64,000 nt of DNA from Prochlorococcus marinus (lineage in GTDB: Bacteria > Cyanobacteriota > Cyanobacteriia > PCC-6307 > Cyanobiaceae), in the NCBI RefSeq assembly GCF_001180305.1, contig NZ_CVSX01000040.1, positions 1 to 64,000 on the forward strand. The letters are read 5' to 3'. Numbering within the stretch: position 1 is the stretch's first letter; each line of letters opens with the position of its first letter. This document shows, piece by piece, positions 36,826 to 52,281 of this stretch. The notes under the pieces were generated by a model that was not told the origin of the DNA, searched no databases, and worked only from the letters and a program-made list of their open reading frames with translations. The translations under genes and the position numbers were made by a program.

Positions 36826-36870
36826 TTTTGGGAGCACTAGGTCGCAGGTTCGAATCCTGTCGCCCCGACC
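36826..36870 (+). repeat. tRNA-Pro 3' half, relic attachment site
   Basis: From TTTTGGGAG to CGCCCCGACC the sequence equals the anticodon loop (TGG), variable loop, T arm (GCAGGTTCGAATCCTGT) and 3' acceptor strand of a cyanobacterial tRNA-Pro. The 5' side does not form a D arm or anticodon stem, so this is no working tRNA. 3' tRNA halves starting at the anticodon loop are typical footprints of tyrosine-integrase insertion. The rest of 36588-36928 shows nothing else. Confidence 0.75.
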
Positions 36871-36928: not shown

Positions 36929-37141
36929 TTACCAAGAAATAGCACCTTCGTTTATACCATCAGTCCAAGGATCGTCATATTTGCCAATAGCACCTTCATT
37001 TATGCCATCAGTCCAAGGATCGTCATATTTGCCAATAGCACCCTCGTTTATACCATCAGTCCAAGGATCATCATATCCAGCAAAAACTGGAGTAAAAAAA
37101 GAAGCAGCAACTAAAAGAGTAGTGATAAAAGTTTTTTTCAT
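36929..37141 (-). CDS. Secreted tandem-repeat peptide, 70 aa
   Basis: A Sec signal peptide (MKKTFITTLLVAASFFTPVFA) is followed by Gly and three tandem copies of a 16-residue unit, YDDPWTDGINEGAIGK; the last copy ends in SW. In DNA the units are 48 bp and differ at five or so positions, all synonymous, so the peptide is under selection. It could be a multi-core secreted peptide, a metal-binding repeat or a surface-displayed ligand. It has an island-type promoter (37172-37198). Confidence 0.75.
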   Translation of the reverse strand: MKKTFITTLLVAASFFTPVFAGYDDPWTDGINEGAIGKYDDPWTDGINEGAIGKYDDPWTDGINEGAISW

Positions 37142-37171
37142 TTTTAAATTTTTATAAAGTACATATATGAT

Positions 37172-37198
37172 TAGTTCTGAATTATCTAGATTGATTCC
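37172..37198 (-). promoter_or_regulatory. Island promoter motif, site A
   Basis: On the minus strand: GGAATCA, 14 bases, GAACTA, preceded by TTT; about 30 bases before the ATG of the repeat-peptide gene. Same motif and spacing as sites B, D, E, F and G. Best read as -35 and -10 elements of an alternative sigma factor. Confidence 0.7.
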
Positions 37199-37201
37199 AA
37201 A

Positions 37202-37303
37202 TTAAAAATCTACAGATCTCCAATCACCACTTAGCTGGAAAGCTGCCCATTCATATGGATGCCTCCATTCTGGAATCCTATAATTTCTAAACTGTTTTTG
37301 TTT
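37202..37303 (-). pseudogene. Fragment of a CHAT protein C-terminus
   Basis: 33 codons ending in WAAFQLSGDWRSVDF, the last block of the CHAT proteins at 39807 and 48371 (WAAFQLSGDWR in both). Upstream in frame is an immediate TGA, so only the C-terminal tail survives. It is the remnant of a third CHAT gene, left where a rearrangement joined it to other sequence. Confidence 0.8.
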
Positions 37304-37346
37304 TCAAGGGTCTTTTGCAACAAGAGAAATCTAGTGAATGGGGGAG

Positions 37347-37751
37347 CTACCTTACCCAACCATCTTTAGTACAAGTTCCATATCCAAAATCTAAAGAACT
37401 ATGTCGAAGATATGTTGGTTTAGGGTTGGCTTTATTTACAGCTTGTATATGCTTTTCTGAACAGAAGTATCTATTTCCCCCATATCTATTTTTTATTAAA
37501 ATAATATCTTTATTTATTATTACTGCTTTTTCATTGGTCTTAATAAAACAAGCATTACCAGTTTCGCCCGCTAATATATCACATTTATGTTTTAGGGCAG
37601 GGGGATAAGCATTAGTAAACCAATAATAATAACCTTCAGAATCAATTGTTCCTGACCAGGAACTTGGAGGTCTTTCGGTTGTATAAATCGTATATTTTTC
37701 AGCCAATACAGGACTTGAAAATAATAAAAGTGCAAATAGTAAACGTTTCAT
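37347..37751 (-). CDS. Secreted Cys-containing protein, 134 aa
   Basis: Signal peptide MKRLLFALLLFSSPVLA, then a mature domain with four Cys (HKCDIL, NACFIK, YFCSEK, YGTCTK), which may form two disulfides in the periplasm. SYGTC-type end. Last gene of the operon 39748-37347; its start overlaps the previous stop by 4 bases. Unknown function. Confidence 0.7.
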   Translation of the reverse strand: MKRLLFALLLFSSPVLAEKYTIYTTERPPSSWSGTIDSEGYYYWFTNAYPPALKHKCDILAGETGNACFIKTNEKAVIINKDIILIKNRYGGNRYFCSEKHIQAVNKANPKPTYLRHSSLDFGYGTCTKDGWVR

Positions 37752-38242
37752 TTTTTACCTTGCATATAGATGGTTTCGATAGTTGATATCCACCAATATC
37801 CAAAGCTGTTAGTTAGTCTTTTCTGAATTTCTAAAGAGGGCTCTTCCATACCTCGAGCCTTATATAATTTGGGTACTGCTTTTTCAGTTGCTTCTTTGCA
37901 AAAAGCAGTTCTTTCTGCAACTTCATTTACAATAATTGGCTTTATATTGCCTTTTTTATTGAACATAATTTCAGGTTTAATTTTATTACCTCTCATAATA
38001 CCAACAAATAATTTATCTGATATATCCATTGCTTCATCTGGGTGTTTGCCTTGATTAACAGCAAATACATAAGTACAAGCAGCCATAGAAATAAATCTTG
38101 CAGCACAACTTTCTGCTCCATATTTCTGACATTCCAAACTAAATTCATTTTCTAATTTTTCAAATTGCTCTGGTTTTGTTGGCACTGCAAAAGCTGAAAA
38201 ATGGGATAGCAAGAATATAGTTGCAAGAAGTATTTTTTTCAT
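37748..38242 (-). CDS. Secreted protein, 164 aa
   Basis: Signal peptide MKKILLATIFLLSHFSAFA, then a helical domain with four Cys (LECQKY, ESCAAR, AACTYV, AFCKEA). It is the third gene of a four-gene operon with a PH-like protein and a TPR protein, overlapping the next gene by 4 bases. Probably periplasmic. No known family recognised. Confidence 0.7.
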   Translation of the reverse strand: MKKILLATIFLLSHFSAFAVPTKPEQFEKLENEFSLECQKYGAESCAARFISMAACTYVFAVNQGKHPDEAMDISDKLFVGIMRGNKIKPEIMFNKKGNIKPIIVNEVAERTAFCKEATEKAVPKLYKARGMEEPSLEIQKRLTNSFGYWWISTIETIYMQGKK

Positions 38243-38255
38243 AATTGATTTTGTT

Positions 38256-39179
38256 CTATTTATTTCCTAAAAGGTTTTTAATACTTGCTTTAAAATTATC
38301 TGAATTTTTACAGTTATCTGCTTCTTTGAACGCGTATTCATATCCTAGTTCTGAAGCTTTTATCCAATCAGCGCATGCTTCTTTAAATTTATCAGAGTTG
38401 TAATTCATTAGGCCTCTGTTGAAATGTGCAAAATCTAAATCTGGATTTATAGAAATGGCTTTGGAATAATCAGAAATAGCACCTTCGTAGTCATTTATTT
38501 TTCCCTTTGAATATCCTCTGGCTGCATATAAAAGATCATCATCTTGGTCAATTTTTATTGCCTTAGTAAAATCTGAAATAGCTGCATAATGATCTTCTAA
38601 TTTAGATTGCATATAACCTCTACCATAAAAAGCATTGGCGTTTTTTGAATTAATATTTATTAAAGTTGTAAAGTCACTAATTGCTCCTAATAAATCCCCT
38701 ATATCCGATTTTGCATATGCTCTATTTATGTAAGCATTTTCGTAGTCTTTTTTCAAAAAAATAGCTTTGTTGTAATCAGAAATTGCTCCATAGTAATCTT
38801 TCAACTTATCTTTTACATAACCTCGATTATAAAAAGCTTGATGATATGTTTTATCTATCTCTATCGCTTTTGAATAATCAGAAATAGCACCTTCGTAATC
38901 TTTTATTTTGCTCTTTGATAAAGCTCTCCTAAAAAAAGCATGTTTATTTTCTGGATTATTTTTTAAAATTTCGGAATAATCAATTATTGCACCTCTATAA
39001 TCTTCATTTTTGTATTTGATATCGCCATCTTTAATTTTGTTATTTGAGTTAGCTTTACCTGCATTATTATTAATTTTATCTTCAATAGTATTTGAGGATA
39101 AATTAATTGAATCCGAAAAGATTGCACTTGGATAGCTTATTAAAAATCCAGCAGCAAGAATAATTAATTGTTTTTTCAT
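38256..39179 (-). CDS. Secreted TPR-repeat protein, 307 aa
   Basis: A signal peptide (about 22 residues) and an Asn-rich linker precede seven or so 34-residue tetratricopeptide repeats (about 45-275), each with the (A/Y)xxRGYxK..L.DY.GAISD(Y/F)xKAI pattern. TPRs bind other proteins. It closely resembles the N-terminal TPRs of the CHAT protein at 48371, so it may act as a partner or decoy for the same ligand. Confidence 0.85.
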   Translation of the reverse strand: MKKQLIILAAGFLISYPSAIFSDSINLSSNTIEDKINNNAGKANSNNKIKDGDIKYKNEDYRGAIIDYSEILKNNPENKHAFFRRALSKSKIKDYEGAISDYSKAIEIDKTYHQAFYNRGYVKDKLKDYYGAISDYNKAIFLKKDYENAYINRAYAKSDIGDLLGAISDFTTLININSKNANAFYGRGYMQSKLEDHYAAISDFTKAIKIDQDDDLLYAARGYSKGKINDYEGAISDYSKAISINPDLDFAHFNRGLMNYNSDKFKEACADWIKASELGYEYAFKEADNCKNSDNFKASIKNLLGNK

Positions 39180-39208
39180 TGTTTAAACTCATAAAAATTA
39201 TTTAAGTT

Positions 39209-39748
39209 TTAATCAGTTTCAACTTCTTCAATTTCTAAATCATGATGCGCTATTGCTTCTCTAAAGAATTTAAAGTCATCTTGATTCTTCATTAATTGAA
39301 TATTTTCTTTTCTTAATTGACTTGAGAAAAAATAATCTGGAATACTTCCTGTAATAAAGTTGCCTTGAATAGACAAAGAATATGTCCATGCCGAAGTCCA
39401 GTGTTTGGTCTTTTTTAGACTATGTAAAGAATCAATATCTAATGAGCTTATTATTGGAAGTAATGAGGAACGATAATTAACTTGCCAGTAAGTATTCCAA
39501 AAAATAATTCGCTTATCAGTTACTAATAGATTGCTTCGTGTGGCACATAAGCCATATCTTCTTATGCACAAAGATGTATATAAAAATTTTTCATTTTCTA
39601 TAGGTATAAATTCATCCATCTTATGAATTTCGTTAACCATTTCTTGATCAACAGCCACATCTTTAGACCAGTTGTAAGTGGGATATGTTAACCCAACTTT
39701 TTCAAAACCTTTATTTACAGTGTTTAGAATTTTAGTTGCTTTAGACAT
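39209..39748 (-). CDS. PH/GRAM-like domain protein, 179 aa
   Basis: No signal peptide. Residues about 55-125 (YTSLCIRRYG, LLVTDKRIIFWNTYW, a beta-rich stretch) resemble bacterial PH-like (bPH) domains, whose core is often L-x-V/L-T-D/N-x-R-I/L. Such domains bind lipids or peptides at membranes. First gene of the four-gene operon, behind promoter site B. Assignment is tentative. Confidence 0.6.
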   Translation of the reverse strand: MSKATKILNTVNKGFEKVGLTYPTYNWSKDVAVDQEMVNEIHKMDEFIPIENEKFLYTSLCIRRYGLCATRSNLLVTDKRIIFWNTYWQVNYRSSLLPIISSLDIDSLHSLKKTKHWTSAWTYSLSIQGNFITGSIPDYFFSSQLRKENIQLMKNQDDFKFFREAIAHHDLEIEEVETD

Positions 39749-39776
39749 TAAATAAAATAAAAACTCTAAATAGTTT

Positions 39777-39803
39777 TAGTTCTAACTTTTAAAAAGTGAT
39801 TCC
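39777..39803 (-). promoter_or_regulatory. Island promoter motif, site B
   Basis: TTTGGAATCA, then TTAGAACTA with GGAATCA-N14-GAACTA spacing on the minus strand, about 28 bases before the ATG at 39748. It shares the longer form TTTGGAATCACTT with sites E and F. It should drive the operon 39748 to 37347. Confidence 0.72.
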
Positions 39804-39806
39804 AAA

Positions 39807-42800
39807 TTAAAAATCTATTGGTCTCCAGTCTCCACTTAATTGAAATGCTGCCCAGTAGTAAGGATGACGAAATCTAGTAATAGAATGATTTTTAAATTCT
39901 TTTTGTGTTTCAGCCAAAGCTTCTGATCTGCCCATGCCAACCTTAAGTTTTTGATAAAATTTCTCCATAAAATCTGCTGTTGCTTTATCATCAACCTTCC
40001 ATAAAGAAAGTAGACTTGATCGTGAACCAGCAACTGCAATTGCTCTTTTAAGACCATATATTCCTTCTCCAGAACGAATATCTCCTTTACCTGATTCACA
40101 TCCAGATATAACTACTAGTTCAGTTCCCTGCCAATTAAGTTTGGTTACTTCTAAAGCAGTTAAGTATCCATCATCTATTGGATTATATTCTGGTTGATTT
40201 GCTCCTGCTAAAACAATTCCACTTCTTAGAAGAGGATTTTCATTATTTATTTGATCAGGGAGGAAATAAGCATGGCTAGCGATGTGTATAATTTTTGGCT
40301 TTTCTCGCTTTTGAATAGCCAAAGCGGTTGCTTCATTTTGTGTTAAAAGTTGTGATTTTAAAATTTCCGATATAGCTTTCCCTTCTTTAGCGGTACCTGG
40401 TAGCAGAACCCAATTTGAAGATAATAAATCTCCAGATCTCTTTTGAGCAATTTTATTAGAGTTAAATTTATCATTTTTCTTCTGAAAATTTTGAATTATA
40501 TTGAAAGATGGATTAGCAATAACTAAAGGATCTTTATTAATTACTTTAGATTTTTTAGCTAGTCTTAAAAGTTCTCTACCTGTTGTAAGCAAACGAATAT
40601 TGACTATTTCACCTAACAACATATTTTTTTTGTATGAACTTAATGCTGCAAATGGCACGCGGTTAAGTTGTGCATCAGGAGATATGAATAGAGTATCTTC
40701 TTGATTTAATACTTTTTTTAATGGCTTTATAACTAATTCTCCCACATCATTCCATAACTTTTGGGCGTCCTCTAATCCCTGTTCAGAAGATAATAATGCT
40801 AAATTAATTTTCTTATCTATTTTCTCCGCTGTTCCTAAATCAATAGTATGAATAATTCCATTTGGTTTAAGGATGATTGAAAGGTAACGTGATTTATTGT
40901 CTTCATAATTCTGGATCTGTTTTCTTCCAAAAAAATGTGAATCTCCAAATCTTTTTTCACCATCTTGTATTCCTTTATAAGGGGAATAGCGCTGAAATTC
41001 TACTAAAGCTTCACCAGGTTTTAAGATGCTCGAGATCTGACTTATCTCAATTAATGGTAGTTTAATTTCTGGTAAAATTTTATATAATTCTTTTTCTAAT
41101 TTTTCTTTTTTTGAATTTAGTCTTTGCCTATCTTTTTTAGTTATTTTAGTGAATGATAAGTTTTTTATTATTTCTTTTAAATTTATTGTTATTTCCTTTT
41201 GAGGTCCTTCTAATAAAGAAAGTTTAGATTGTATTTTTTCAATTTCTTCAGATAAGCCTTGGCGATTAATTCTGAGTAATAATGCTAATTCTTTAATTGG
41301 ATAAGAATCCAAATCATATGTATAGATTGTTTTAGGCAAACTATCATCAATAATTCTTGAGAAATGCCTCCTGGTTGAAACAGGTAAGAAGGGTAATTCT
41401 CTTTTTATTAATTCAAGTAATATTTCAACTGATTTTCTATTACTATTTGCAGCAAGTTTATATTTAGATTGTAATGTATAAATTTCTCCCAAATATTTAT
41501 AATTCAAAGCTATTTGTGAATGGTTTTTTCCTAAGTATTCTTTGTTTATTCTTAAGGCATCCTGAAGTAAATTCTCAGCTTTTTTAAAATCCTTTATCCT
41601 TGCATATATAAACATTGCAAGATCAAAATAAGTAATAGCGATATGAGGATGATCTTCACCTAAAGCTTTTTTAAATTTGTCTAAAGAACTTAGTAAATAA
41701 TCCTCTCCTTTCTTATATTGACCTTGATTACTGTATAAAAAGCCAAGCCAAGCTAATGTATTAGCAACTGCTGCATGATCTTCACCTAAAGCTTTTTCTT
41801 CTATTGATAAGGCTCTCTTAAAATTTTCTTCAGCTTTTTTGTATAGACCTTTTTGCTCATAAAGAATAGCAAGCGTTCCAAGAGTAGATGCCACTTCAGG
41901 ATGATCTGCTCCGAATACTGAATATTCTATTTCTAAAGCACTTAAATAATTTTTTTCTGCTTTATTTAAAAGTCCCTGGAGTTCAAAAAGATCGCCAATA
42001 TAAATAAGTTTTTCTGCTACATAAGGATGATTATTACCAAAAGCTTTTTTTTCTATTGTTAAGGCTCTTATAAAATTTTCCTCTGCTTTTTGATAAAGTC
42101 CTTGCTCTTTATAAAGGTTTCCAAGAGAAGCAAGTGTTACGGCTAAATTAGGATGGTCGCTCCCTAAAACTGACTCTTCTATTTCTAAAGCACGTAAGAA
42201 ATTTTCTTCAGCCTTTTTATAAAATCCTTTTTTTTGATAAAGATCTCCAAGAGTTCCTATTAAAAGAGCTTTATCAGGATGATTTTCTCTATATACCTTT
42301 TCTCCTATTTCTAAAGCTCGTAAGAAATTTTCCTCTGCTTTTTGAAAAAGTCCGTTTTGCTGATAAAAGCTTCCTAAGTAAATAAGTGTTTTTGCGATTT
42401 CAGGATGGTTCCTCCCTAAGACTGACTCTTCTATTTCTAAAGCACGTAGGAAATTTTCTTCTGCTTTTCTATACAGTCCTTGTTGTTGATAAAGATCACC
42501 AAGAGAGACAAGTATTCCAGGTAAGTCATCATTATTATCTTGATTAATTTCTTCTATTTCTAAAGCACGTAGGAAATTTTCTTCTGCTTTTCTATACAGT
42601 CCTTGTTGTTGATAAAGATCACCAATTAGATAATATGTTATAGCTAAGTCAGAGTGGCTCTTTCCCAAAGATTTCTCTTCTATTTCTAAAGCACGTAGAT
42701 AACAATCTTCTGCATTTTTTAAAAGTCCTTTTTTGATATAAATTTCCCCAATCCAAAATAATGTTGCAGCAACCTGAGGATTATTTTCTCCTAGAAACTT

Positions 42801-43055
42801 TTTTTCTAATATAAGTATTTGTTTTAATAAATTATATGTATCATTTAGAAGATTTTCTTCTTCAAACTTGTAAGCTTGATTAATTAACTTTTTAATTTCT
42901 TCCTCTGCTTCTTCTTTAGTATTGATAATTCGATTATTAGTAATATAATTTTCTGCAAATAAATTTGATGCAATAAAATTTTCTGATGAAAAAATAGGAA
43001 ATATAAATGAAAAAAGTAAAGTGATTTTAAGAATAAAATTTTTATTTAATTTCAA
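39807..43055 (-). CDS. TPR-CHAT protease-like protein, copy 1 (1082 aa)
   Basis: A signal peptide or anchor (about residues 10-35) is followed by about ten 42-residue kinesin-light-chain-type TPRs (about 80-500: G.LY...G.Y.KAEENFLRALEIEE), a helical linker, and a CHAT domain (about 750-1082). CHAT is a caspase-like protease fold. The dyad is intact: His928 in HIASHA and Cys986 in ISGCESG. Relatives cleave partner proteins after TPR sensing, e.g. gasdermins or the Csx30 target in Craspase. It lies 180 bases after the TerB gene and is probably in its operon. Target unknown. Confidence 0.9.
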   Translation of the reverse strand: MKLNKNFILKITLLFSFIFPIFSSENFIASNLFAENYITNNRIINTKEEAEEEIKKLINQAYKFEEENLLNDTYNLLKQILILEKKFLGENNPQVAATLFWIGEIYIKKGLLKNAEDCYLRALEIEEKSLGKSHSDLAITYYLIGDLYQQQGLYRKAEENFLRALEIEEINQDNNDDLPGILVSLGDLYQQQGLYRKAEENFLRALEIEESVLGRNHPEIAKTLIYLGSFYQQNGLFQKAEENFLRALEIGEKVYRENHPDKALLIGTLGDLYQKKGFYKKAEENFLRALEIEESVLGSDHPNLAVTLASLGNLYKEQGLYQKAEENFIRALTIEKKAFGNNHPYVAEKLIYIGDLFELQGLLNKAEKNYLSALEIEYSVFGADHPEVASTLGTLAILYEQKGLYKKAEENFKRALSIEEKALGEDHAAVANTLAWLGFLYSNQGQYKKGEDYLLSSLDKFKKALGEDHPHIAITYFDLAMFIYARIKDFKKAENLLQDALRINKEYLGKNHSQIALNYKYLGEIYTLQSKYKLAANSNRKSVEILLELIKRELPFLPVSTRRHFSRIIDDSLPKTIYTYDLDSYPIKELALLLRINRQGLSEEIEKIQSKLSLLEGPQKEITINLKEIIKNLSFTKITKKDRQRLNSKKEKLEKELYKILPEIKLPLIEISQISSILKPGEALVEFQRYSPYKGIQDGEKRFGDSHFFGRKQIQNYEDNKSRYLSIILKPNGIIHTIDLGTAEKIDKKINLALLSSEQGLEDAQKLWNDVGELVIKPLKKVLNQEDTLFISPDAQLNRVPFAALSSYKKNMLLGEIVNIRLLTTGRELLRLAKKSKVINKDPLVIANPSFNIIQNFQKKNDKFNSNKIAQKRSGDLLSSNWVLLPGTAKEGKAISEILKSQLLTQNEATALAIQKREKPKIIHIASHAYFLPDQINNENPLLRSGIVLAGANQPEYNPIDDGYLTALEVTKLNWQGTELVVISGCESGKGDIRSGEGIYGLKRAIAVAGSRSSLLSLWKVDDKATADFMEKFYQKLKVGMGRSEALAETQKEFKNHSITRFRHPYYWAAFQLSGDWRPIDF

Positions 43056-43234
43056 TTTAAATTCCTTATTCTCTAATATTTTAAATTCTATTCAAATTTT
43101 TTTTTATCACAATACGCCAAACCATATTAAGGCAAAACTTCTAATCATTTTTTATTAAGTTCATGAATTATTTAAATACCTTTACTCAATTTTTAAATAA
43201 ATTAAATTTTTCTCTAAAAGAACTTTTGCCTAAA

Positions 43235-43861
43235 TCATATCAATATAATTTCTTCTTCAATAAATATTCCTCGAACATATGCTCTTGGTATTTGTAATGA
43301 CTCGGATAAATCAAAAAGCATTTCAAGTTCATTTTTCTTAACAGTTTTATCTTCTGAAATTATTTTAATACTTGCTCTTAAGATTGCTTCTTTACCAAAT
43401 TCGTTTGCAATAGTACTAAGTTCATTTGCAATTTGGTTGTATGTTTTTTCTGAATTTTTAACTCTTTGAAAAGCATTTACAAGTAAATCTTTATCAAGAG
43501 AAATTTGAGTAGCCTGCAAATATGCATTCTCGATTTTACTAATATCAAGATTTTCTATTGAGTTTTTTGTAATAGCTAATTTTATTAAAAGATCTAATAT
43601 AAGTAATAAATAAATAGCTTTGTATTCTTCAGCTTCTTTTTCAGGATCATAATCTAATATTTTTTTATCATAGGTTGTTTTACATGATGTACATTCGACA
43701 TATTCTCCATGATCTTGAATAGGAAAAGTCCTTACGAAATATAATGTAAAGTATTGCTTACTATGCTTAAGTTCATATTGTCTGTGACCTTGGCAATGTG
43801 GACAATAAAATCTACCACTCTCTTTTGTAGAAGCTTTACTTCTAGAGCCCCAAATAATCAT
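43235..43861 (-). CDS. Zinc-ribbon plus TerB-like protein, 208 aa
   Basis: The N-terminus has two CxxC pairs (Cys20/23 in YCPHC; Cys57/60 in ECTSC) forming a zinc ribbon. Residues about 100-205 are all-helical and, in ILRASIKIISEDKTVKKNEL and the following helix, resemble a TerB/tellurite-resistance fold with acidic residues. TerB-like domains occur in stress and phage-response systems. It has promoter site C and precedes the CHAT copy 1 gene. Confidence 0.75.
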   Translation of the reverse strand: MIIWGSRSKASTKESGRFYCPHCQGHRQYELKHSKQYFTLYFVRTFPIQDHGEYVECTSCKTTYDKKILDYDPEKEAEEYKAIYLLLILDLLIKLAITKNSIENLDISKIENAYLQATQISLDKDLLVNAFQRVKNSEKTYNQIANELSTIANEFGKEAILRASIKIISEDKTVKKNELEMLFDLSESLQIPRAYVRGIFIEEEIILI

Positions 43862-43891
43862 TTTAAAATTTTTATAAATTGCAGATATTAT

Positions 43892-43917
43892 TAGTTCCGC
43901 TTTTTTTTATTGATTCC
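43892..43917 (-). promoter_or_regulatory. Island promoter motif, site C
   Basis: TTTTGGAATCA, 13 bases, GAACTA on the minus strand, about 31 bases before the ATG at 43861. The spacer is one base shorter than at the other sites. Confidence 0.6.
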
Positions 43918-43940
43918 AAAATACTTAATTTTTAATTAAG

Positions 43941-45131
43941 TTATTTGCAATCATCAGTTTTTGTTATTTCCTTTATTGATTTTTCAATAGTCTTAGAAGA
44001 TGGTGTACTTTCTGAAAGCAATATTGTAAGAGCAGTATTATTGTCTTTCTCTATATTTCTTTTAATAAAACTTATCCAATCACTTTTTGACTTGCCCAAA
44101 TTTTTTTCAATATTATCTTTTCTCAAAAGTGGAATTTTTTTATCAAATACAAAATCTATTTCTAGTTTAGAGCCCATTCCAGATCCTTCTGGTCTAAGAG
44201 ATAGTCTATAAGAATCTTTTTTATTTATAGAATTTAATGGCCAATTAATTGGTCCATTAATTTTTTCTTTTGATGAAGCTATTTTTTCCCAAACAATATC
44301 ACCATTTTTTGAAATATTTATTTCATTAAGTGGTTTTAGGGAATATATCACTGGCTTATCTATTTTTATTTTTGCTTCAAAATTATTATTTATATTTTTT
44401 GTAAGTGTAGGAGTTAAAAGACATATCGAATTACTATCAGAACTTCTTGTAAAACTTTGAATTTCATATGTGCTTGGGCTTAGCTTAGCAATACCACCTA
44501 TCAATCTAGGTCTAATTATTTGAGGACCTATTAGAGCTGCCATTAATCCACTAGCTATTAATGGAGTAGATAGCTTAAATTTTATTTTTAAACTTGGAAT
44601 CTTAAAATTAGATATTGCAGTTTTAAAATATGTTCTTTCTATAGATTCAGGATTTAACAATCTTACATATCTTATTAATCGATCAATCCCTCCTTTGAAA
44701 TTCTCAATCTCAATCTCAGCAAAATCTTTCTTTAGTTCTTTTTTACTCACAATTTTCTCAAATTCACTACTTTTTAAAACACCCTTAAAGTAAATAACGT
44801 CTAAATCTTCTTCTAATTGAGCTGCTAAAAATAATTGTGGCCCTTTATTCTTTATTTTTGAATTTTTTAAAGGTATTTGAATAACATCGGAAATTAAACT
44901 TGTATATACAATTTGTATATCAAACTTATTTAAAATAATTGACCTTAGAGGATTATTTAAATCTAATTTTGGTCCCAATGGTAAATCAAGATTTTTATCT
45001 TTTAAATATTTTTTTAAAGCACTAATTATTTTATCTCTTGGGTTTAGATTTTTTTTGGAATTAATGTAAATTGCATCATTAGGTATTGGGAATAAATCTA
45101 AAGGATCTTTTTTCGGGTTTTTCTTTGTCAT
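43941..45131 (-). CDS. DUF1822-like protein, 396 aa
   Basis: Soluble N-terminal half with PQLFLAAQLEEDLDVIYFKG followed by LKSSEF, which matches my memory of DUF1822 (the AVQVNPE..V.G..T...L block). A hydrophobic segment (about 187-215) may cross or touch the membrane, and a beta-rich C-terminus follows. DUF1822 genes sit beside sigma-70-like and CHAT genes in other cyanobacteria. Its ATG overlaps the sigma-like stop by 4 bases, so the two are made together; it could be a sigma partner or anti-sigma (inference). Confidence 0.6.
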   Translation of the reverse strand: MTKKNPKKDPLDLFPIPNDAIYINSKKNLNPRDKIISALKKYLKDKNLDLPLGPKLDLNNPLRSIILNKFDIQIVYTSLISDVIQIPLKNSKIKNKGPQLFLAAQLEEDLDVIYFKGVLKSSEFEKIVSKKELKKDFAEIEIENFKGGIDRLIRYVRLLNPESIERTYFKTAISNFKIPSLKIKFKLSTPLIASGLMAALIGPQIIRPRLIGGIAKLSPSTYEIQSFTRSSDSNSICLLTPTLTKNINNNFEAKIKIDKPVIYSLKPLNEINISKNGDIVWEKIASSKEKINGPINWPLNSINKKDSYRLSLRPEGSGMGSKLEIDFVFDKKIPLLRKDNIEKNLGKSKSDWISFIKRNIEKDNNTALTILLSESTPSSKTIEKSIKEITKTDDCK

Positions 45132-46471
45132 TTACTTATTACCTCATAAATAGTATTTCTTAGAATAGAAATATTATTTTTATCTTCGCTAAAAACTAAA
45201 TAACTTTTTAAACCATCTAATAATTTATCAAGGCTTTCTGGATCTTCTTTGAATTTATTAAATTCGTTCTTTTTTAAAAGTTCAAAAGCACTTTCTTGGG
45301 CTATTTCTTCTGAAATCTTATTTTCAGGAATTAATTTACTTACCCAACCCTGCTTATGATCACATTTGGATGCAATCTCCCTTTGACTAAGACCTTCTCC
45401 ATATAACATCCACGCATTTTTCCTTGATGGATCCTTTATCCATTTTGCGCTGTCTTTTTTAATTATTTGATTAACGATGTTTGTTGAATTTCTCTTTAAA
45501 ACATTTTTTATAATTTCTGATAAATCTTTTGAAGAATATTCTTCTTCATCTTCAAGTCTATTTTCAATTTGATTTTCTTCATATTCATAAAAGCTTCTTG
45601 TGTCATAAGGACTAGATATATATTTCCTCAAAGCTTTATCAATTAACAATAATATTTCTGTATTTTTTTGAGGAGGATTTAGAGATTTTAAAAAATCTTC
45701 ATCGGGAGACCATCCTGATATTTTCCCTGTCCTATTTTTATAATCTTGCTTTGCCTTTTTATATTCAACTAAATATGATTCATATAATTTTTCTAAATCT
45801 TTTTCACTTAAATTCCCTTCACCGTATTCTCGCCAAGAAATAATTATTCGTTTTTTAGAACTATCTGCTATTAATGACCATGGAGAAATAAGTAGTATGC
45901 CACATTCTTTTAAATATTTCTTTAGTTCATAGTTACCTTTTACTTTGTTCTGGCTCCAAGTATTTAAATTGGATAGTTTAGGATTAAAATCTGCAATTAC
46001 TTCTGCACTAAAAGGTTTTAAAATATTATTTTCTTTCATAAACATTATTGTTTCCCAGGAGAATAATTTCCTTAAAAAATTATTCTTCTTTGCATCAATT
46101 TTTAAAGGTATTCTTAAATATTTTTCACCGCTATCATCTAAAACAATTATCAACATATCATTTAAATTAATTTTTTCATTCTCAAATTGATAAGTATATT
46201 TTCTAAATATTTCATTTACCTTTTGAAAAATTGGAAAACTTATTCTTCCTCTTAGAGCAAGAAGAGCGTCTTTTGAAGAAGAGTCTTTTTTTGCCAAGTC
46301 AAATATTTTATTATCAAATTTATTATCAAACTCTTGATCATATAAATTATGTTTAGAGCAAAAATCACTATCAATATCTAATAATTTTTGTTTTACCTTC
46401 CCACTAAAAGAATCGAGACAATAAATATTGCAATATCCTTTTGACAAAAGATTTAAATACTCTAAAAACAT
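45128..46471 (-). CDS. Sigma-70-like HTH protein, 447 aa
   Basis: Overall plan (helical N-terminus, LKKYLKECGILLISPWSLIAD, then a charged helical middle and a C-terminal helix-turn-helix AWMLYGEGLSQREIASKCDH at about 353-372) matches the sigma-70-like factors found with DUF1822 and CHAT genes in filamentous cyanobacteria. The HTH resembles sigma region 4; a clear region 2 is not obvious to me. It is in the operon 47549-43941 and, by inference, reads the island promoter motif, including its own (site D). Confidence 0.65.
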   Translation of the reverse strand: MFLEYLNLLSKGYCNIYCLDSFSGKVKQKLLDIDSDFCSKHNLYDQEFDNKFDNKIFDLAKKDSSSKDALLALRGRISFPIFQKVNEIFRKYTYQFENEKINLNDMLIIVLDDSGEKYLRIPLKIDAKKNNFLRKLFSWETIMFMKENNILKPFSAEVIADFNPKLSNLNTWSQNKVKGNYELKKYLKECGILLISPWSLIADSSKKRIIISWREYGEGNLSEKDLEKLYESYLVEYKKAKQDYKNRTGKISGWSPDEDFLKSLNPPQKNTEILLLIDKALRKYISSPYDTRSFYEYEENQIENRLEDEEEYSSKDLSEIIKNVLKRNSTNIVNQIIKKDSAKWIKDPSRKNAWMLYGEGLSQREIASKCDHKQGWVSKLIPENKISEEIAQESAFELLKKNEFNKFKEDPESLDKLLDGLKSYLVFSEDKNNISILRNTIYEVISK

Positions 46472-46477
46472 ATTAAA

Positions 46478-47383
46478 TCAATCTAGAAGATTCCTAAACC
46501 TTGTATATTGAGGTTCAAATAATAATTTAATAGTCCCAACAGGACCATTTCTCTGCTTAGCTACAATTATCTCGGTTATACCTCTATCTAAAGTTTCAGG
46601 ATTGTAGTATTCATCTCTATAAATAAAAGCTATTAAATCAGCTCTATTTTCTATTACTTCCGAGTCTCTAATATCACTAAGCATAGGTCTTTTATTAGTT
46701 CTGGTTTCTAATTCTCTTTTTAATTGTGATGTAATAATTACAGGTACTTCAAGATTTATAGATAAATTTTTCAAATCATTCATGATTTTTGAAAGCTCAT
46801 CTTCTCTTAAAATATTTCGGCCTAAACTCTTATCTTCCAGAAGTTGTAGGAAATCAATAAATATTGCTCCAATATTTTGATTATGTATATTTTTTACTTT
46901 CTTACAAATTTGATAAATTTCTGAAACTTGTATTAATGCTTTATCTATAAGATATATTGGGTTTTTATTTAGAAAAGAAATTGCCTCTCCAAGTATTGGC
47001 CATTCTTCCTGAGTTAGTCTTCCTGTTCTAAGCCGCCCAGACTCTATACCAATTTCCATTGAAAGCAATCTATGACAAAGCATTTTCTGACTGGTCTCAA
47101 GTGAAAAGAAACATATTGGTAAATTATTTATTTGACTTATATTTTTTGCAATGTTTAGAACAAAAGATGTCTTTCCCATTGCTGGCCGGCCGCCAATAAC
47201 ATATAAATTGCCGGGAGATAGTCCTTGTGTAATAGCATCGAAATCATAAAAATTCACTGTTATTCCAGTACTTTTCTTATTACCAATTGAAGTTGCTTCA
47301 ATATCATTGAAAACAGAATTTAATAAATCCTTTATTTTAAATTCAGATAAATCATCCTTATTATCATTTCTTTTGTTATTCAT
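46478..47383 (-). CDS. Short DnaB-like RecA-fold ATPase, 301 aa
   Basis: The start at 47383 is chosen because GGAG lies 8 bases before it; a longer frame exists. Only the C-terminal ATPase of replicative helicase is present: Walker A GRPAMGKTS (65-73), SLE (94-96), Walker B IFIDFLQL with Asp177, and the DNA-binding loop AKQRNGPVG. The N-terminal primase-interaction domain is missing. It is 6 bases before the sigma-like gene. It may sense or act on DNA rather than drive replication. Confidence 0.85.
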   Translation of the reverse strand: MNNKRNDNKDDLSEFKIKDLLNSVFNDIEATSIGNKKSTGITVNFYDFDAITQGLSPGNLYVIGGRPAMGKTSFVLNIAKNISQINNLPICFFSLETSQKMLCHRLLSMEIGIESGRLRTGRLTQEEWPILGEAISFLNKNPIYLIDKALIQVSEIYQICKKVKNIHNQNIGAIFIDFLQLLEDKSLGRNILREDELSKIMNDLKNLSINLEVPVIITSQLKRELETRTNKRPMLSDIRDSEVIENRADLIAFIYRDEYYNPETLDRGITEIIVAKQRNGPVGTIKLLFEPQYTRFRNLLD

Positions 47384-47399
47384 AATTTTCTCCAATTGA

Positions 47400-47549
47400 T
47401 TAAAATTTGTTTTTATATAAGTTTGAATAAATATTTGTATCTTCATTTTGATTTGTAGCTAACGAAGGCTCAATGGTTAATGTGTAGCCAAATCCAAGAC
47501 CTGTGATAAAAATTCCTACTATTGAAGAAATGATTGTTGTGAATTTCAT
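47400..47549 (-). CDS. Small membrane or secreted peptide, 49 aa
   Basis: MKFTTIISSIVGIFITGLGF gives one helix or a signal peptide, followed by a 28-residue polar tail. It is the first gene behind promoter site D and lies 16 bases before the DnaB-like gene. Unknown function. Confidence 0.55.
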   Translation of the reverse strand: MKFTTIISSIVGIFITGLGFGYTLTIEPSLATNQNEDTNIYSNLYKNKF

Positions 47550-47573
47550 TTTTGTATATCAACTAATAGTTCA

Positions 47574-47600
47574 TAGTTCTGAAATGATTAGTATGATTCC
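47574..47600 (-). promoter_or_regulatory. Island promoter motif, site D
   Basis: TTTGGAATCA, 12 bases, then CAGAACTA on the minus strand, about 25 bases before the ATG at 47549. It drives the operon that contains the sigma-like gene itself, which would make the system autoregulated. It directly abuts the terminator at 47601. Confidence 0.72.
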
Positions 47601-47626
47601 AAAAAAAAACCCGAACTTTTTCGGGT
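47601..47626 (-). terminator. Terminator of the 47654-47866 gene
   Basis: ACCCGAA / TTCGGGT stem with a 4-base loop, followed on the minus strand by nine Ts. It insulates the short secreted-protein gene from the helicase/sigma operon that starts just beyond. Confidence 0.85.
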
Positions 47627-47653
47627 CAATAATATTCATAATTTATGAAAAAT

Positions 47654-47866
47654 TTAACAGTAGCTCACACCCCAATACTTGGGACATATATTTCCGTAGC
47701 TATCTCTATAGTAAATACCTCCAGCGGAGCTTTCAAAAGGTGTGAAATAATCAGCTGCTGCTGGTAATGGATTAGTAATAATCGCTCCAATACTAAAAGC
47801 AACTATTGAAAAAACTAGTTTTAATTTTTTGCTTTTAGAGATGCTTTTGTGATTAGTTTGGTTCAT
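47654..47866 (-). CDS. Small secreted protein, 70 aa
   Basis: A basic N-terminus and hydrophobic helix (LVFSIVAFSIGAIITNPLPA) end in an AAA-type signal cleavage site. The mature part of about 32 residues is aromatic and Gly-rich with two Cys (NICPKY and SYC end). It has its own island promoter (site E) and terminator. Unknown function. Confidence 0.65.
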   Translation of the reverse strand: MNQTNHKSISKSKKLKLVFSIVAFSIGAIITNPLPAAADYFTPFESSAGGIYYRDSYGNICPKYWGVSYC

Positions 47867-47898
47867 GGTTATAAAAAATAAGTTTATACAAATTGCCT

Positions 47899-47925
47899 TA
47901 GTTCTAAACTTTTTAAAGTGATTCC
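47899..47925 (-). promoter_or_regulatory. Island promoter motif, site E
   Basis: TTTGGAATCACTT and TTTAGAACTA in the GGAATCA-N14-GAACTA arrangement on the minus strand, ahead of the 70-aa secreted-protein gene. It lies back to back with site G, 11 bases away. Confidence 0.72.
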
Positions 47926-47936
47926 AAATTTAAATA

Positions 47937-47963
47937 AGAATCAGTTTCATAAATCCAGAACAA
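47937..47963 (+). promoter_or_regulatory. Island promoter motif, site G (variant)
   Basis: AGAATCA, 14 bases, GAACAA on the plus strand, about 25 bases before the ATG at 47988. One mismatch in each box but exact spacing, and positioned as a divergent partner of site E. Less certain than the others. Confidence 0.5.
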
Positions 47964-47987
47964 TACATTAATAAATCAAATTTATTA

Positions 47988-48338
47988 ATGAAATTTTTAA
48001 TTTATTGGCTATATTCAGCTATCGTTTCTGGAATATGGTTTTTCTGGAGATATAGGATTTATGAAAATGAATTTTTAATTATTGATGATGCTTTAAAGGA
48101 TTGTGTTAATTGGGGAAAAAGAAATGGCTATTTACTACCTGAGAAACCTAGTTATTTTCAATTTTTCTTAGTAGAAAGACCATGGAATATTTTAATTTTG
48201 AATTTTACTTTTTTACCGCTTTTTCTCATTAATTTAGTGGTGATTTTGCTACTAATATCACCCTGGGAAAGGAAAGTAATGAGATACAAAAGAGCAATGA
48301 AAAACCTTAAAGATAAATGGGAAAAGGAATACTTTTAA
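47988..48338 (+). CDS. Two-helix membrane protein, 116 aa
   Basis: Helix 1 at about residues 3-20 (LIYWLYSAIVSGIWFFW), a soluble middle with a Cys, helix 2 at about 70-92, then a basic tail. Unknown function. It is one of the few + strand genes in the CHAT block and has a variant of the island promoter. Confidence 0.6.
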   Translation: MKFLIYWLYSAIVSGIWFFWRYRIYENEFLIIDDALKDCVNWGKRNGYLLPEKPSYFQFFLVERPWNILILNFTFLPLFLINLVVILLLISPWERKVMRYKRAMKNLKDKWEKEYF

Positions 48339-48370
48339 AGTTCAGGTCATGATATTTAAAGACTAATTTA

Positions 48371-51300
48371 CTAATTAATGACTCTCCAATCTCCACTTAA
48401 TTGAAATGCTGCCCATACATTTGGATGTCTCCAAGCCTCCACGATATGGTTTCTAAACTCCTTTTGAGTTTCAAATAATGCCTTATTCCTATTAACCCCA
48501 GATTTTAATTTTTTATAAAAACTTTTCATAAATGCTGCAGTAGGCTCATCTTTTACTTCCCAAAGAGATAACATACTTGATCTTGCCCCTGACACAGCAA
48601 TTGATCTTTTCAGGCCATAAACACCATCGCCTGCTTTATTAACTCCTATCCCTGATTCACAACCTGAAATAACAACTAATTCTGTACCCTGCCAATTTAG
48701 TTTACTTACCTCTAAAGCAGTCAAATAGCCATCATCTAATTTATTCAGATTAGGAAAATTTGCACCTGATAATACTATTCCACTCCTTAAAAGTGGATTC
48801 TCAAATTTAGTATTTTTTGTATTCAAGTTATTTGAAAAAAGTATTGAAGATAAAATATTATTCTCTTCTTTATTACTTAAGAAAAAAGAATGAGAAGCAA
48901 TATGAATGATTTTTGGAGACTCTTTTTTTTGTATATTTAATGCGGATGCTTCATTTTTTAAAAGCAAATTAGCATTTATTTCCTTAGCAATAAATAGACC
49001 TTCTTTTTTAGTCGCTGGTAATTGACCCCATATTCTTGCGTTTTGGTCAAAGGAACGCTCTTGATTATAAATTTTTCTAGGCTTATTAAATTCCTTCTCG
49101 TCTTTAGTATTGGTCTTTAAATCGAAATTTGGATCCGCTGCCACCAATGATTGATTTTTTTCAAGTTTATTTTTTTTATTTAAAATTACTAATTCTCTCC
49201 CAGTAGTTATCAGTCTTAATTCGAACTGATCCGCAAGAAATATAGCTTTTTTATTCGCCATAGCTGAAAAAGGTATTCGATTTAATTCTGCATCTGGCGA
49301 TATATACAATATTTCTTTATCATTTATAAATTTTTCAAGAGGTTCTATTATTAGAGTTGCTACTTTATTCCACATTATTTGAGCATCAGGGAGATATTCT
49401 TCTGATGAAATTAGGGCGTTATTTATATATTTTTCAATTTTAGAACTATTCCCTAAATCAATTGTTTCTACTTCTCCATTTGGAAATAACAGAAGAGCTT
49501 GATATCTAGGCTCTTCCCAATTTTTTTCATTTAAAGCATCTTCAGGGTTTTCAAAGATAAAGGGTCTATATTTTTGATACTCAATTAATACTCCATTTTT
49601 TGGAATTTCATTTGCTATTTCCTCAATTGAGTAAATCTTTGATTCAAGTTTTGGTAATGATTTATATAACTTTGATTCTAAGTTTTCTTTTTTAGTAGTA
49701 AGACTATTGAATAAGTCCTTATCATTTGAAGTAATCGATGCAATTTTATTCGTTATTTTTAGAATCTCATCCTTTAATATTTTTTGTTCACCTTGAAGTG
49801 ATGTTATTTCAGATTGTTTTCTCTCAATTTCCTCAAGTAATCCATGACGATTTAGCCTCGCATATAAGGCAAGATATTTTCCTTTTGGATGGATATTAGA
49901 TGCAGAAAAAATTGCGGGATATGATATTCCCAGTGTTTTGATAAACTCATCTCTTTTTGATAATGGTAAAAATGGTATTTGTTTTTGAATGAATTTAAAT
50001 TGTAAATCAAGACTTTTTCTTAAATAGAAATCTGTTTTTTCATATTTGCCATCATTAAAATGTACCATCGCTAAATTTATCAAAGGTTGAATCAATATTG
50101 GATTTTCATCCCCATATATTTTTTTAAAGTTTTTGAGTGATTCTTCGTGATAAATTTTTGATTCTTTATTTTTTCCTTGAAACCATAAAGCGCTTCCTAT
50201 CATTCCTGATAAATACGGTTCAGGTTCTTTAAATTTTGAATCTTTAAATTGTAATTTATAAATTCTTTTTAAAATCTTTTCTGCCTTTGGTAATTTATTT
50301 TCCATAAAAGCAATATATGCAAGATTAAATTGACCCTCGGCACTCCAATAATCTATTAATTTTTTTGCTTTTTTAAATTCTTTTTTATCTATATAAATAC
50401 CAATAAGAAGATTCTTGCATGCACTGTAATAAAAAGAATTGCTTCTTACTTCTTTGCTTATATTTGCTAAACATTTTTCCAGTAATGCCTCTGATTTATC
50501 AATGTTCCCAACATAAGAGTTATAAAGGGATTCGGCATAAAGTAGAGAAACATAACTTTCATTGGTATTTATTTTATTAAGTAATTTCTTACCCTTAACT
50601 AATAATTCTGGGATCTCTTGATACTCTCCAAACCTTGAATAAACATCAATTAAATATGTAATTGATAAAAATATTTCATTTTCATTACCAAAATTAAAAA
50701 CAGATTTAAAGTCTGAAACAGCACCATTTAAATCTCCAATCTTTGATCTAATTAAACCTCTATGTTGATAATAAATTGCTTCTAAGGAATTATTTTTGAT
50801 TGCAGCTGTATGATCTATTATTGCGCCTTCAAGATCATTTAGTAACTCTTTATAGTATCCCCGCAAATTATATAAATAAGAATCGCCTGAATTTCTCTCA
50901 ACTGCAAGATCTAAGTCATCAATAGCTTCAATATATTTTCCTAAATCGCCTTTACTGTAAGCTCTTGCACCATAAGGATAAGATCTTCCCGGATCAAGCT
51001 CTATAGATTTAGTAAAGTCAGATATTGCACCATTATGATCACCAAGCATTTGTTTGCTAAATCCACGACCATTAAAGCTTGGTGCCCAGAGATTAGGATT
51101 TAATTCTATCGATTTAGAGAAATCTGATTTTGCTCCTTCGTAATCACTTAAGTTATTTTTGCTAACCCCTCTATGATAATAAGCTTCCCAATTCGTTGGA
51201 TATTGTTTAAGAAAGTCATTAATATCATCTAATGCACCTGAGTAATCAGTACTTTCTATTTTTTCTATTCCTTCTAAAAGGAGCGAGTTGTGCGAATCTG

Positions 51301-51376
51301 CTTTTAATGATTTAAAAAATGAAAAATCTAAAAAATTACTACTGAATATAAAAGTAATTAAAAAAAATTTAAACAT
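48371..51376 (-). CDS. TPR-CHAT protease-like protein, copy 2 (1001 aa)
   Basis: Signal peptide (about 1-26), then 34-residue TPRs (about 28-230) of the type seen in the 307-aa TPR protein, further helical repeats (about 230-480), a linker and a CHAT domain (about 650-1001). His829 (HIASHS) and Cys906 (ISGCESG) form an intact catalytic dyad. The C-terminal 120 residues are very close to copy 1, while the TPR part differs, so the two may sense different partners. Its ATG directly follows the stop of the zinc-protease gene. Confidence 0.9.
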   Translation of the reverse strand: MFKFFLITFIFSSNFLDFSFFKSLKADSHNSLLLEGIEKIESTDYSGALDDINDFLKQYPTNWEAYYHRGVSKNNLSDYEGAKSDFSKSIELNPNLWAPSFNGRGFSKQMLGDHNGAISDFTKSIELDPGRSYPYGARAYSKGDLGKYIEAIDDLDLAVERNSGDSYLYNLRGYYKELLNDLEGAIIDHTAAIKNNSLEAIYYQHRGLIRSKIGDLNGAVSDFKSVFNFGNENEIFLSITYLIDVYSRFGEYQEIPELLVKGKKLLNKINTNESYVSLLYAESLYNSYVGNIDKSEALLEKCLANISKEVRSNSFYYSACKNLLIGIYIDKKEFKKAKKLIDYWSAEGQFNLAYIAFMENKLPKAEKILKRIYKLQFKDSKFKEPEPYLSGMIGSALWFQGKNKESKIYHEESLKNFKKIYGDENPILIQPLINLAMVHFNDGKYEKTDFYLRKSLDLQFKFIQKQIPFLPLSKRDEFIKTLGISYPAIFSASNIHPKGKYLALYARLNRHGLLEEIERKQSEITSLQGEQKILKDEILKITNKIASITSNDKDLFNSLTTKKENLESKLYKSLPKLESKIYSIEEIANEIPKNGVLIEYQKYRPFIFENPEDALNEKNWEEPRYQALLLFPNGEVETIDLGNSSKIEKYINNALISSEEYLPDAQIMWNKVATLIIEPLEKFINDKEILYISPDAELNRIPFSAMANKKAIFLADQFELRLITTGRELVILNKKNKLEKNQSLVAADPNFDLKTNTKDEKEFNKPRKIYNQERSFDQNARIWGQLPATKKEGLFIAKEINANLLLKNEASALNIQKKESPKIIHIASHSFFLSNKEENNILSSILFSNNLNTKNTKFENPLLRSGIVLSGANFPNLNKLDDGYLTALEVSKLNWQGTELVVISGCESGIGVNKAGDGVYGLKRSIAVSGARSSMLSLWEVKDEPTAAFMKSFYKKLKSGVNRNKALFETQKEFRNHIVEAWRHPNVWAAFQLSGDWRVIN

Positions 51377-52135
51377 TCAAAATTTGAATTTTGTTTTGTT
51401 AGATAAGCCTTTTAAATTTACGCCTAATAAGCCTGCGGCATCTTTTTTATATGGTGTTGGCTCTAAATCAACAGATTTCCCTGAACCCCTTGTTTTAGAG
51501 AATGTTTTATAAAGTGGATCGTCTATCTCATTCTCAACAAGTTTATCTATTGAGGCCATAGAGCAAGTTGAATCAACTCTGCCCATTCCAGATAAAAGAG
51601 CATAAGCTCTTTGTGCTCCTGTCCCATGACTATCGCTCCCAATAGCATAGGCTGAAGAGGCCATTTCTAAAATACTCTCTCTTGTTACTCCTAATTCCTC
51701 ATTGCCTTTTTGAATAAAATAACCTGCTAAACAATCCGCTTGAAGTTCACTATGAGGTTTTTCATATTCAATTTCTAATCCTTGTTGTAGTGCATGTGCA
51801 AATTCATGAGCAATTACGAAAGTAATGCTTGAATTACCAAAATACTTCACAAAACTTTTGAGTTGTTTTGGATCAAGAACGATTGTATGGGTAGCAGGAC
51901 AATAATAAGATCCGCCTACATCGATTCCTGTTTTGTAGTCACCGCACCCTCCGTATACCTTTGTTCCTGTATTAGTGGTTATAACTTGAGGTGGGTATAT
52001 TCCTTTTAAGCTTTTATCTGAATCCCAATTACTCATTAGGTAAACAGTTGTTTTATCTATGATTTTATTTATATCACTGGCATTTGCAGTATTTGGAGAA
52101 AGAAGAAATATCAAAATTAGAATTAGTTTCTTCAT
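51377..52135 (-). CDS. Secreted neutral zinc metallopeptidase (YpfJ-like)
   Basis: 252 residues with a signal peptide (MKKLILILIFLLSPNTANA). The zinc site His110-Glu111-x2-His114 is in AHEFAHALQ, and the third ligand Glu130 is in ELQADC. SDSHGTGAQR completes the signature of the putative neutral zinc metallopeptidase family (PF04228-type). There is no gap to the CHAT gene that follows, so two proteases are made together, both exported. One might activate the other (inference). Confidence 0.85.
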   Translation of the reverse strand: MKKLILILIFLLSPNTANASDINKIIDKTTVYLMSNWDSDKSLKGIYPPQVITTNTGTKVYGGCGDYKTGIDVGGSYYCPATHTIVLDPKQLKSFVKYFGNSSITFVIAHEFAHALQQGLEIEYEKPHSELQADCLAGYFIQKGNEELGVTRESILEMASSAYAIGSDSHGTGAQRAYALLSGMGRVDSTCSMASIDKLVENEIDDPLYKTFSKTRGSGKSVDLEPTPYKKDAAGLLGVNLKGLSNKTKFKF

Positions 52136-52186
52136 GATCCTTAAATTAACTTTCGATTTTTCTATTTTACATATTATTTAATTTTT

Positions 52187-52213
52187 GGAATCACTTAAAT
52201 TTATTCAGAACTA
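52187..52213 (+). promoter_or_regulatory. Island promoter motif, site F
   Basis: TTTTTGGAATCACTT and TTCAGAACTA in the same GGAATCA-N14-GAACTA spacing, but on the plus strand, ahead of the 75-aa secreted-protein gene. It shows the motif is tied to transcription direction, not to a repeat in one orientation. Confidence 0.72.
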
Positions 52214-52281
52214 TCAATAATCAGTTGGAGCTAAACTCCTTATTCTTACAAAAACTAATGATTCAAACATCCTCTATTTCT

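Follow-up and report, generated by a model that had tools for sequence, protein, structure and literature searches.

Sigma factors of the extracytoplasmic function (ECF, group 4) class use promoters of the GGAAC/GTC type, and in self-encoded regulons of the HrpL type, carried on islands or mobile elements, a sigma factor encoded on an accessory island directs transcription of the genes of that same island. In cyanobacteria ECF sigma factors and DUF1822 are found beside EACC2-caspase genes, and a transcriptional output has been proposed for them (PMC8195603), with no promoter named in the available part of that paper. Secreted CHAT proteins are known from the island module Syn_GI122 of marine Synechococcus (PMC7522525), and again the available part of the paper describes neither a sigma factor nor a promoter. 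Here we consider an island of Prochlorococcus marinus that lies in a window of 64,000 nucleotides (nt; the whole stretch of DNA analysed, from contig NZ_CVSX01000040.1), in which genes are repeatedly preceded by the two-box motif GGAATCA-N13/14-GAACTA and in which the gene at 45128-46471 encodes a 447-amino-acid (447-aa) sigma-like protein. The motif is very probably a core promoter, with GGAATCA as −35 and GAACNA as −10 box, for the polymerase carrying this protein, and the island would so constitute a private, self-activating regulon, as far as its sequence can tell.

Like the DUF1822-linked ECF-like sigma cassettes of larger cyanobacteria, as set out in the available part of PMC8195603, the island has a single partner gene immediately behind its sigma gene, caspase-superfamily proteases in the region (here CHAT proteins) and a sigma factor homologous to theirs by profile. 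It differs in that its sigma factor has diverged beyond the reach of family models, that its partner is only weakly DUF1822-like (hhalign probability 8%, P 0.004) and that short (~5.5 kb) DUF1822 neighbourhoods show a CHAT pattern in just 2/20 cases. With Syn_GI122, compared by its description in the available part of that paper, it shares the occurrence of secreted CHAT proteins in an island module of marine picocyanobacteria. The likeness to HrpL-type regulons is that of an accessory-island sigma factor apparently driving the island's own genes, but the cargo here is different, many relatives have a putative promoter embedded in the sigma gene, and a 5′ hairpin recurs. Compared with ECF promoters, the GGAA-type −35 element and a similar distance from GGAAT to the −10 box are shared, whereas the −10 box here reads GAACNA and the protein, ~430 aa long, includes an N-terminal part as well as a long insert between regions. 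Among the matches listed in a literature search (titles and abstract openings, with few subscription journals covered) there was no published description of the motif or of the sigma family.

Within 37172-52213 there are six exact sites, where chance would give 0.01 in the window, and a seventh with one mismatch per box:

37172..37198, minus strand: site A, promoter-like motif with N14 (pattern and weight model); an open reading frame (ORF) starts 30 nt past the box
39777..39803, minus strand: site B, N14 (pattern and weight model); 28 nt from box end to start codon
43892..43917, minus strand: site C, N13 (pattern and weight model); 30 nt
47574..47600, minus strand: site D, N14, at the head of the sigma gene run (pattern and weight model); 24 nt
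47899..47925, minus strand: site E, N14 (pattern and weight model); 32 nt
47937..47963, plus strand: site G, degenerate, AGAATCA-N14-GAACAA (pattern and weight model); 24 nt
52187..52213, plus strand: site F, N14 (pattern and weight model); 44 nt to the first ATG and 68 nt to the ATG at 52282

Trained on 92 sites of other loci, excluding the window and its near twin, a position-weight model recovers precisely these seven, clear of all other places: the exact sites score 27.0-31.3 and site G 20.2, the next-best place in the window 10.6, and the maximum in 5 shuffled windows is 12.7. All seven are oriented toward the gene downstream of each. The initial annotation had picked out the same seven sites by eye, with their positions and directions, the N13 spacer of C and the degeneracy of G, and had seen the motif nowhere else in the window; all of this is confirmed, and the rest of the 1.46-Mb genome (85 contigs, 91% complete; source contig 197 kb) contains no further exact site and also no match to a reversed control pattern.

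The distribution of the motif across the genus was followed in 266 genomes, searched for sigma relatives with an alignment (A1) of 22 relatives and the 447-aa protein, and for the pattern GGAATCA-N13/14-GAACWA. Relatives are present in 23 of them, 18 full-length-like and 5 distant, of 505-569 aa. The 18 full-length carriers have 83 sites, with at least two in 17/18 (the exception, G124, is a 65% complete genome), compared with 36 sites in 28 of the 243 genomes without a relative, at least two being present in 3/243; the reversed control pattern gives 28 matches over all 266 genomes. Fisher p is 1e-22 with the distant relatives excluded and 4e-19 with these counted as carriers. In seven carriers of 1-7 contigs (G162, G147, G107, G404, G462, G362 and G423) 42/44 exact sites lie within ~20 kb of the sigma gene, and loci retrieved by protein alone, which include a few near-identical pairs, have sites in 17/17 cases when at most one mismatch is accepted (69 sites against 1 for the reversed pattern). 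Among the 19 non-carrier places examined (out of 20 such loci, with N15 matches counted in) an ATG ORF is present in the promoter window at 5 and missing at 14, and 12 of the places fall inside open frames of at least 134 codons. The earlier expectation that sites are restricted to sigma-carrying islands is largely borne out, and since the motif clusters almost only with the sigma relative, the island likely activates its own genes by a private promoter code.

The shape and position of the signal are promoter-like. After removal of near-copies from 156 exact sites in fetched loci (some loci overlapping) 102 are left, of which 89 lie 8-75 nt ahead of an ATG ORF of at least 45 codons, compared with 16/102 on backward reading and 452/3000 random places. 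Beyond the boxes there is a T-rich stretch before GGAATCA, the spacer has preferences, and past the −10 box a T is found at +9 in 74% and a purine at +10 in 89% of these sites. The fixed 13-14 spacer, the non-palindromic and directional character of the signal and its place ahead of ORFs agree with the initial comparison to −35 and −10 boxes. From the T at +9 and the purine at +10, transcription is predicted to start ~10 nt downstream of the −10 box, slightly beyond the 5-9 bases that had initially been expected.

By profile comparison the 447-aa protein is a diverged member of the sigma-70 superfamily by descent, as its initial description as sigma-70-like had it. A diverse alignment of 26 sequences (A2) was set by hhalign against 12 sigma proteins preceding DUF1822 in other cyanobacteria, giving probabilities of 97.3 and 98.0 (P 1.9e-11 and 3e-13) and an alignment colinear over 272 and 231 columns that covers sigma region 2 and region 4; a narrower alignment gave P 4e-5. 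The two of the 12 scanned against NCBIfam match TIGR02937 at 1.2e-27 and 7.2e-33, and in the four scanned against Pfam region 4 is above and region 2 below the cut-off. Sigma-type ancestry is argued from this colinear match to cyanobacterial sigma factors which themselves match TIGR02937. The 447-aa protein also has a helix-turn-helix (HTH)-like stretch near its C-terminal end, and no PDB sequence matches it. A viral origin of the family was considered and dropped, 55 IMG/VR stretches fitting a pattern and none being confirmed. One relative, P0006, is filed under a Flavobacteriales metagenome-assembled genome, likely a binning error.

The sigma gene is part of a run headed by site D:

47400..47549, minus strand: 49-aa hydrophobic ORF, of a cluster found behind sites in 5 other loci
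46478..47446, minus strand: DnaB C-terminal-type (DnaB_C) ATPase (PF03796, E 8e-84)
45128..46471, minus strand: 447-aa diverged sigma-70-superfamily protein (profile comparison)
43941..45131, minus strand: 396-aa partner with a 4-bp overlap with the sigma gene (gene order and predicted architecture)

The ATPase frame overlaps the 49-aa ORF, so its true start may be further in, and no separate N-terminal DnaB domain was matched in it. Because site D heads the run, autoregulation as proposed initially would fit the window; across carriers it is not universal, a same-direction site within 2.5 kb upstream of the sigma gene being present in 10/30 carrier loci (sites with at most one mismatch). In the same comparison the final 130 nt of the sigma gene contain a site in 19/30 loci, 11 of these exact, ~50 nt ahead of the partner start in most loci measured, and in 11/30 a site right at the start of the sigma gene is directed away from it. 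The window and its twin have no such embedded site. In eight relatives (L177-L184, GC 0.47-0.67) AAT and GAA are each used in 8/8 cases at the embedded motif, compared with 21/56 and 65/220 elsewhere in the same sigma genes (gene start taken as the longest frame), which argues that the motif is kept by codon choice.

A homologous partner gene directly follows the sigma gene in the window, in 17/17 loci (two cut by a contig end), in 13/16 of a second set and in two more; for L180 none is listed. Whole copies are of 336-408 aa. The window partner has a hydrophobic segment near residue 187-206, and a moderate one from residue ~182-190 is present in 16/16 full-length partners and in 4/9 of a further set, the five shorter partners of that nine-member set being without a hydrophobic segment there. 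The partner model (predicted local distance difference test, pLDDT, 77) has an alpha/beta N-terminal half, a low-confidence link and a beta-sandwich C-terminal half, and a fold search gave weak Ig/Fn3-like matches (best E 4.5e-3). DUF1822 (PF08852) did not match the window partner (E up to 0.1) or three relatives (E up to 1), and had 0 matches in this genome and in 0/10 family genomes examined; DUF928 as the C-terminal half was likewise set aside as unproven (P 0.18, 20/30 DUF928 loci passing the filter). An anti-sigma-like restraint on the sigma factor may be what the partner provides, going by its modelled architecture and place.

The association extends to other genera. In a family sample of 201 genomes, 10 of them from the genus, the sigma relative is found in 19/201, and at least two GAACWA sites occur in 11/19 carriers against 4/182 non-carriers (p 2e-10). 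In GC-rich lineages the −10 box is often GAACGA. Base 5 of the box is homogeneous per genome, 107/125 sites having their genome's majority base where 5000 permutations give a mean of 81 and a maximum of 93, a homogeneity that is partly base composition, G occurring mainly in GC-rich genomes. Sites recur in genomes whose sigma proteins share only 25-45% identity with the window protein, and the recognition-helix region (A2 columns 555-585) reads HKQxWVSK in Prochlorococcus-type and CGxxxGTVSKK in GC-rich carriers. In a distant 550-aa clade (L186, L187 and L188) a 109-aa secreted-type protein is preceded by a conserved GGAAACTA...GAACAA site, possibly with a shifted −35 box.

Several observations weigh against reading the motif as the promoter of the island's sigma factor. 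The genomes of the five distant relatives have 0, 0, 0, 0 and 1 sites, and the shifted-promoter candidate of the 550-aa clade occurs once in each of 3 genomes, close to a conserved gene, with 21 other genomes of the 266 matching too. Three genomes (50-82% complete) have several sites and no detected sigma gene, and 25 more without a relative have one site each, which is about the reversed-control rate; among these 25 is G073, whose single site is identical to site E. Another of the 25 is locus L030, in a genome (G005, 88% complete) where no sigma relative was found; it keeps a remnant of site F together with the peptide gene, and reads as an orphaned regulon member. In the family sample 8/19 carriers have fewer than two GAACWA sites; seven of these each have at least one GGAATCA-N12/15-GAACNA site, frequently with GAACGA, located either ahead of small proteins or within the sigma gene, and for the eighth, G550, the site search used the GAACWA pattern only. 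The recognition-helix region of GC-rich carriers is strongly different although GGAATCA is constant. As to the protein itself, no Pfam family matches it significantly, NCBIfam gives only TIGR02937 (E 0.015; 14.9 bits, where the cut-off is 42.9), and the AlphaFold model, a poor one (pLDDT 66), has no PDB fold match at E of at most 0.001. As to the circuit, 20/30 loci have no same-direction site within 2.5 kb upstream of the sigma gene (in L044 and L177 less than 2.5 kb of sequence was available), and the anti-sigma role draws solely on gene position and predicted architecture.

Other explanations can be set against the same evidence. The motif could be an operator through which an ordinary HTH activator or repressor, either the 447-aa protein or a different protein of the island, regulates promoters of the housekeeping sigma factor, and the HTH-like stretch of the 447-aa protein and its weak family matches would suit such a role. 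However the site is directional and non-palindromic with a fixed 13-14 spacer, the T-purine at +9/+10 is start-like, the profile comparison aligns sigma region 2 as well as region 4, and because the site is often only 24-30 nt from the start codon there is little room for a separate promoter, all of which makes an operator improbable. That a sigma factor or regulator encoded by the host reads the motif, with the island gene just linked to it, would accommodate L030, where site F and the peptide gene are retained with no sigma relative found in the 88%-complete genome, but against this stand the co-occurrence (17/18 against 3/243), the variation of box base 5 by lineage and the near-background counts in genomes without the relative, and we give it very little weight.

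It is harder still to credit that the sites are passengers of repeated duplication within islands and not selected signals. Sites A and B do both follow opposite-strand CHAT-gene ends with flanks alike, and TPR and CHAT genes are repeated, as such a process would have it; yet the boxes are exact while spacers and flanks vary, codon choice preserves the embedded site, and the recurrence of sites between genera, with sigma proteins only 25-45% identical, contradicts the idea. The regulon of an alternative sigma factor, as the initial annotation proposed, remains well supported by sequence comparison, with a shared directional −35/−10 signal before several units that is clustered in genomes having the sigma gene.

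What the promoters would serve is seen from the first ORFs behind the sites. Sorting 92 of these by similarity gives 56 clusters: TPR proteins (11), small hydrophobic ORFs (6), partners (6), DVYV-type secreted proteins (4), MoxR-type ATPases (4) and DnaB_C ATPases (3), the remaining clusters being other small groups and many singletons. By simple hydropathy an N-terminal hydrophobic segment is present in 33/51 of the first ORFs of at most 130 aa, 29 of these with an AxA-like site, and in 7/41 of the longer ones. Of 10 proteins scanned, 4 were above a Pfam cut-off (two TPR, one AAA, one M48 peptidase). Nif11-type leader peptides, suspected by eye behind some sites, were rejected, the one protein tested being an AAA ATPase. 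In the window the other genes behind sites, and the hairpin that follows site F, are:

36929..37141, minus strand: 70-aa peptide with a hydrophobic N-terminus and a 16-residue repeat (YDDPWTDGINEGAIGK); no Pfam match
39209..39748, minus strand: 179-aa protein without a family match in profile scans
43235..43861, minus strand: 208-aa protein with an N-terminal zinc ribbon (PF17032, E 8e-9)
47654..47866, minus strand: 70-aa peptide with an N-terminal hydrophobic segment (ORF list)
47988..48338, plus strand: 116-aa membrane-like protein (ORF list)
52227..52239, plus strand: hairpin GGAG-ctaaa-CTCC in the 5′ untranslated region downstream of site F (hairpin search)
52225..52509, plus strand: secreted-type small protein, likely start 52282, with homologues behind exact sites in 3 other loci

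The secreted-type peptide at 36929-37141 is made up of three near-identical 16-residue repeats, and nearly the same peptide occurs in L038/L039 downstream of a one-mismatch site.

The hairpin behind site F belongs to a wider pattern. A short GC-rich stem-loop begins 12-18 nt past the box at 20 of the 103 non-redundant GAACNA sites that have an ORF, compared with a mean of 3.0 and a maximum of 9 in 300 shuffles and with 1-4 when the windows are moved by 20-30 nt. Many of these hairpins lie ahead of small ORFs, and their stems vary by locus (GGAG/CTCC, GGGG/CCCC, GAAGC/GCTTC, GTGAAG/CTTCAC and others) at a constant position. Watson-Crick pairing of the stems is imposed by the search itself, and hence no covariation score is claimed; 16 of the 20 were put into a multiple alignment and aligned poorly, so the case for the hairpin is made by its position and the shuffle tests. 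Rfam at gathering thresholds matched only two tRNAs in 36000-55000. At a guess the hairpin stabilises the mRNA 5′ end.

Neighbouring these units are protease genes and the left edge of the island:

39807..43055, minus strand: TPR-CHAT protein with an N-terminal hydrophobic segment, no site ahead (Pfam, weight model)
48371..51376, minus strand: second TPR-CHAT protein, no site ahead (Pfam, weight model)
51377..52135, minus strand: putative zinc metallopeptidase ahead of the second CHAT gene, no site ahead (PF04228, E 2e-10)
36790..36869, plus strand: block ending in a tRNA-like 3′ fragment, at the island's left edge (repeat matches)

The CHAT proteins of the window were identified by Pfam, and in other genomes a home-made CHAT pattern was found in 28/36 carrier regions, with 0/27 in reversed sequences and 0/29 in three-kb loci, beside the 2/20 of the DUF1822 neighbourhoods. 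The stretch at 37200-37320, beyond site A, resembles by eye the end of a CHAT gene and is similar to 39807-39900 beyond site B; it may be what is left of a third CHAT gene, now lost. The block at 36790-36869, whose 3′ fragment we take to be tRNA-Pro, recurs, wholly or in part, 8 more times in the genome. Five of these matches are on contig C27 with a spacing of 1.9-4.2 kb, and the repeats are of island type. Tycheposons are tRNA-borne elements of Prochlorococcus with a tRNA boundary and a tyrosine recombinase. Observed here in that respect were the repeated tRNA-like fragment at the left edge and, as an integrase candidate, the ORF 54289-54612 on the minus strand, which lies beside tRNA-Thr and tRNA-Tyr in a GC-richer stretch and looks by eye like an integrase N-terminus, with no match in Pfam.

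Overall a working scheme would have the 447-aa protein bind core polymerase and these boxes, with transcription beginning ~10 nt past the −10 box. Site D would drive the small ORF, the DnaB_C ATPase, the sigma factor and the partner jointly, a positive feedback, and the partner would restrain the sigma factor in an anti-sigma-like way; where a promoter is embedded in the sigma gene, as in 19/30 loci but not in the window, extra partner may be made as a negative feedback. The output would consist of small peptides of secreted or membrane type, along with TPR proteins, ATPases and numerous unnamed proteins, and the CHAT proteases, siteless here, may be sensors or executioners under another promoter. 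More tentatively, and with the odds somewhat against it, all this could represent a transferable island language made up of a fast-diverging sigma factor, a GGAATCA-N13/14-GAACNA promoter, an embedded promoter for the partner brake and a 5′ hairpin on a subset of the output, which together with the CHAT proteins would form a portable inducible conflict or cell-death response; from Prochlorococcus to GC-rich Synechococcus-type genomes, its promoter code would have diversified jointly with the sigma factor.

Regulators are few in the streamlined genomes of Prochlorococcus, and an accessory island of this kind could switch on as one unit without those of the host. As a sequence tag of very low background the motif lists the regulon in any carrier genome, and it places dozens of unnamed small proteins in one candidate response. 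The promoter inside the sigma gene, constrained as it appears to be through codon choice, would be a clear case of overlapping codes, and the proposed connection of ECF-like sigma factors with caspase-type proteases in cyanobacteria is made directly testable.

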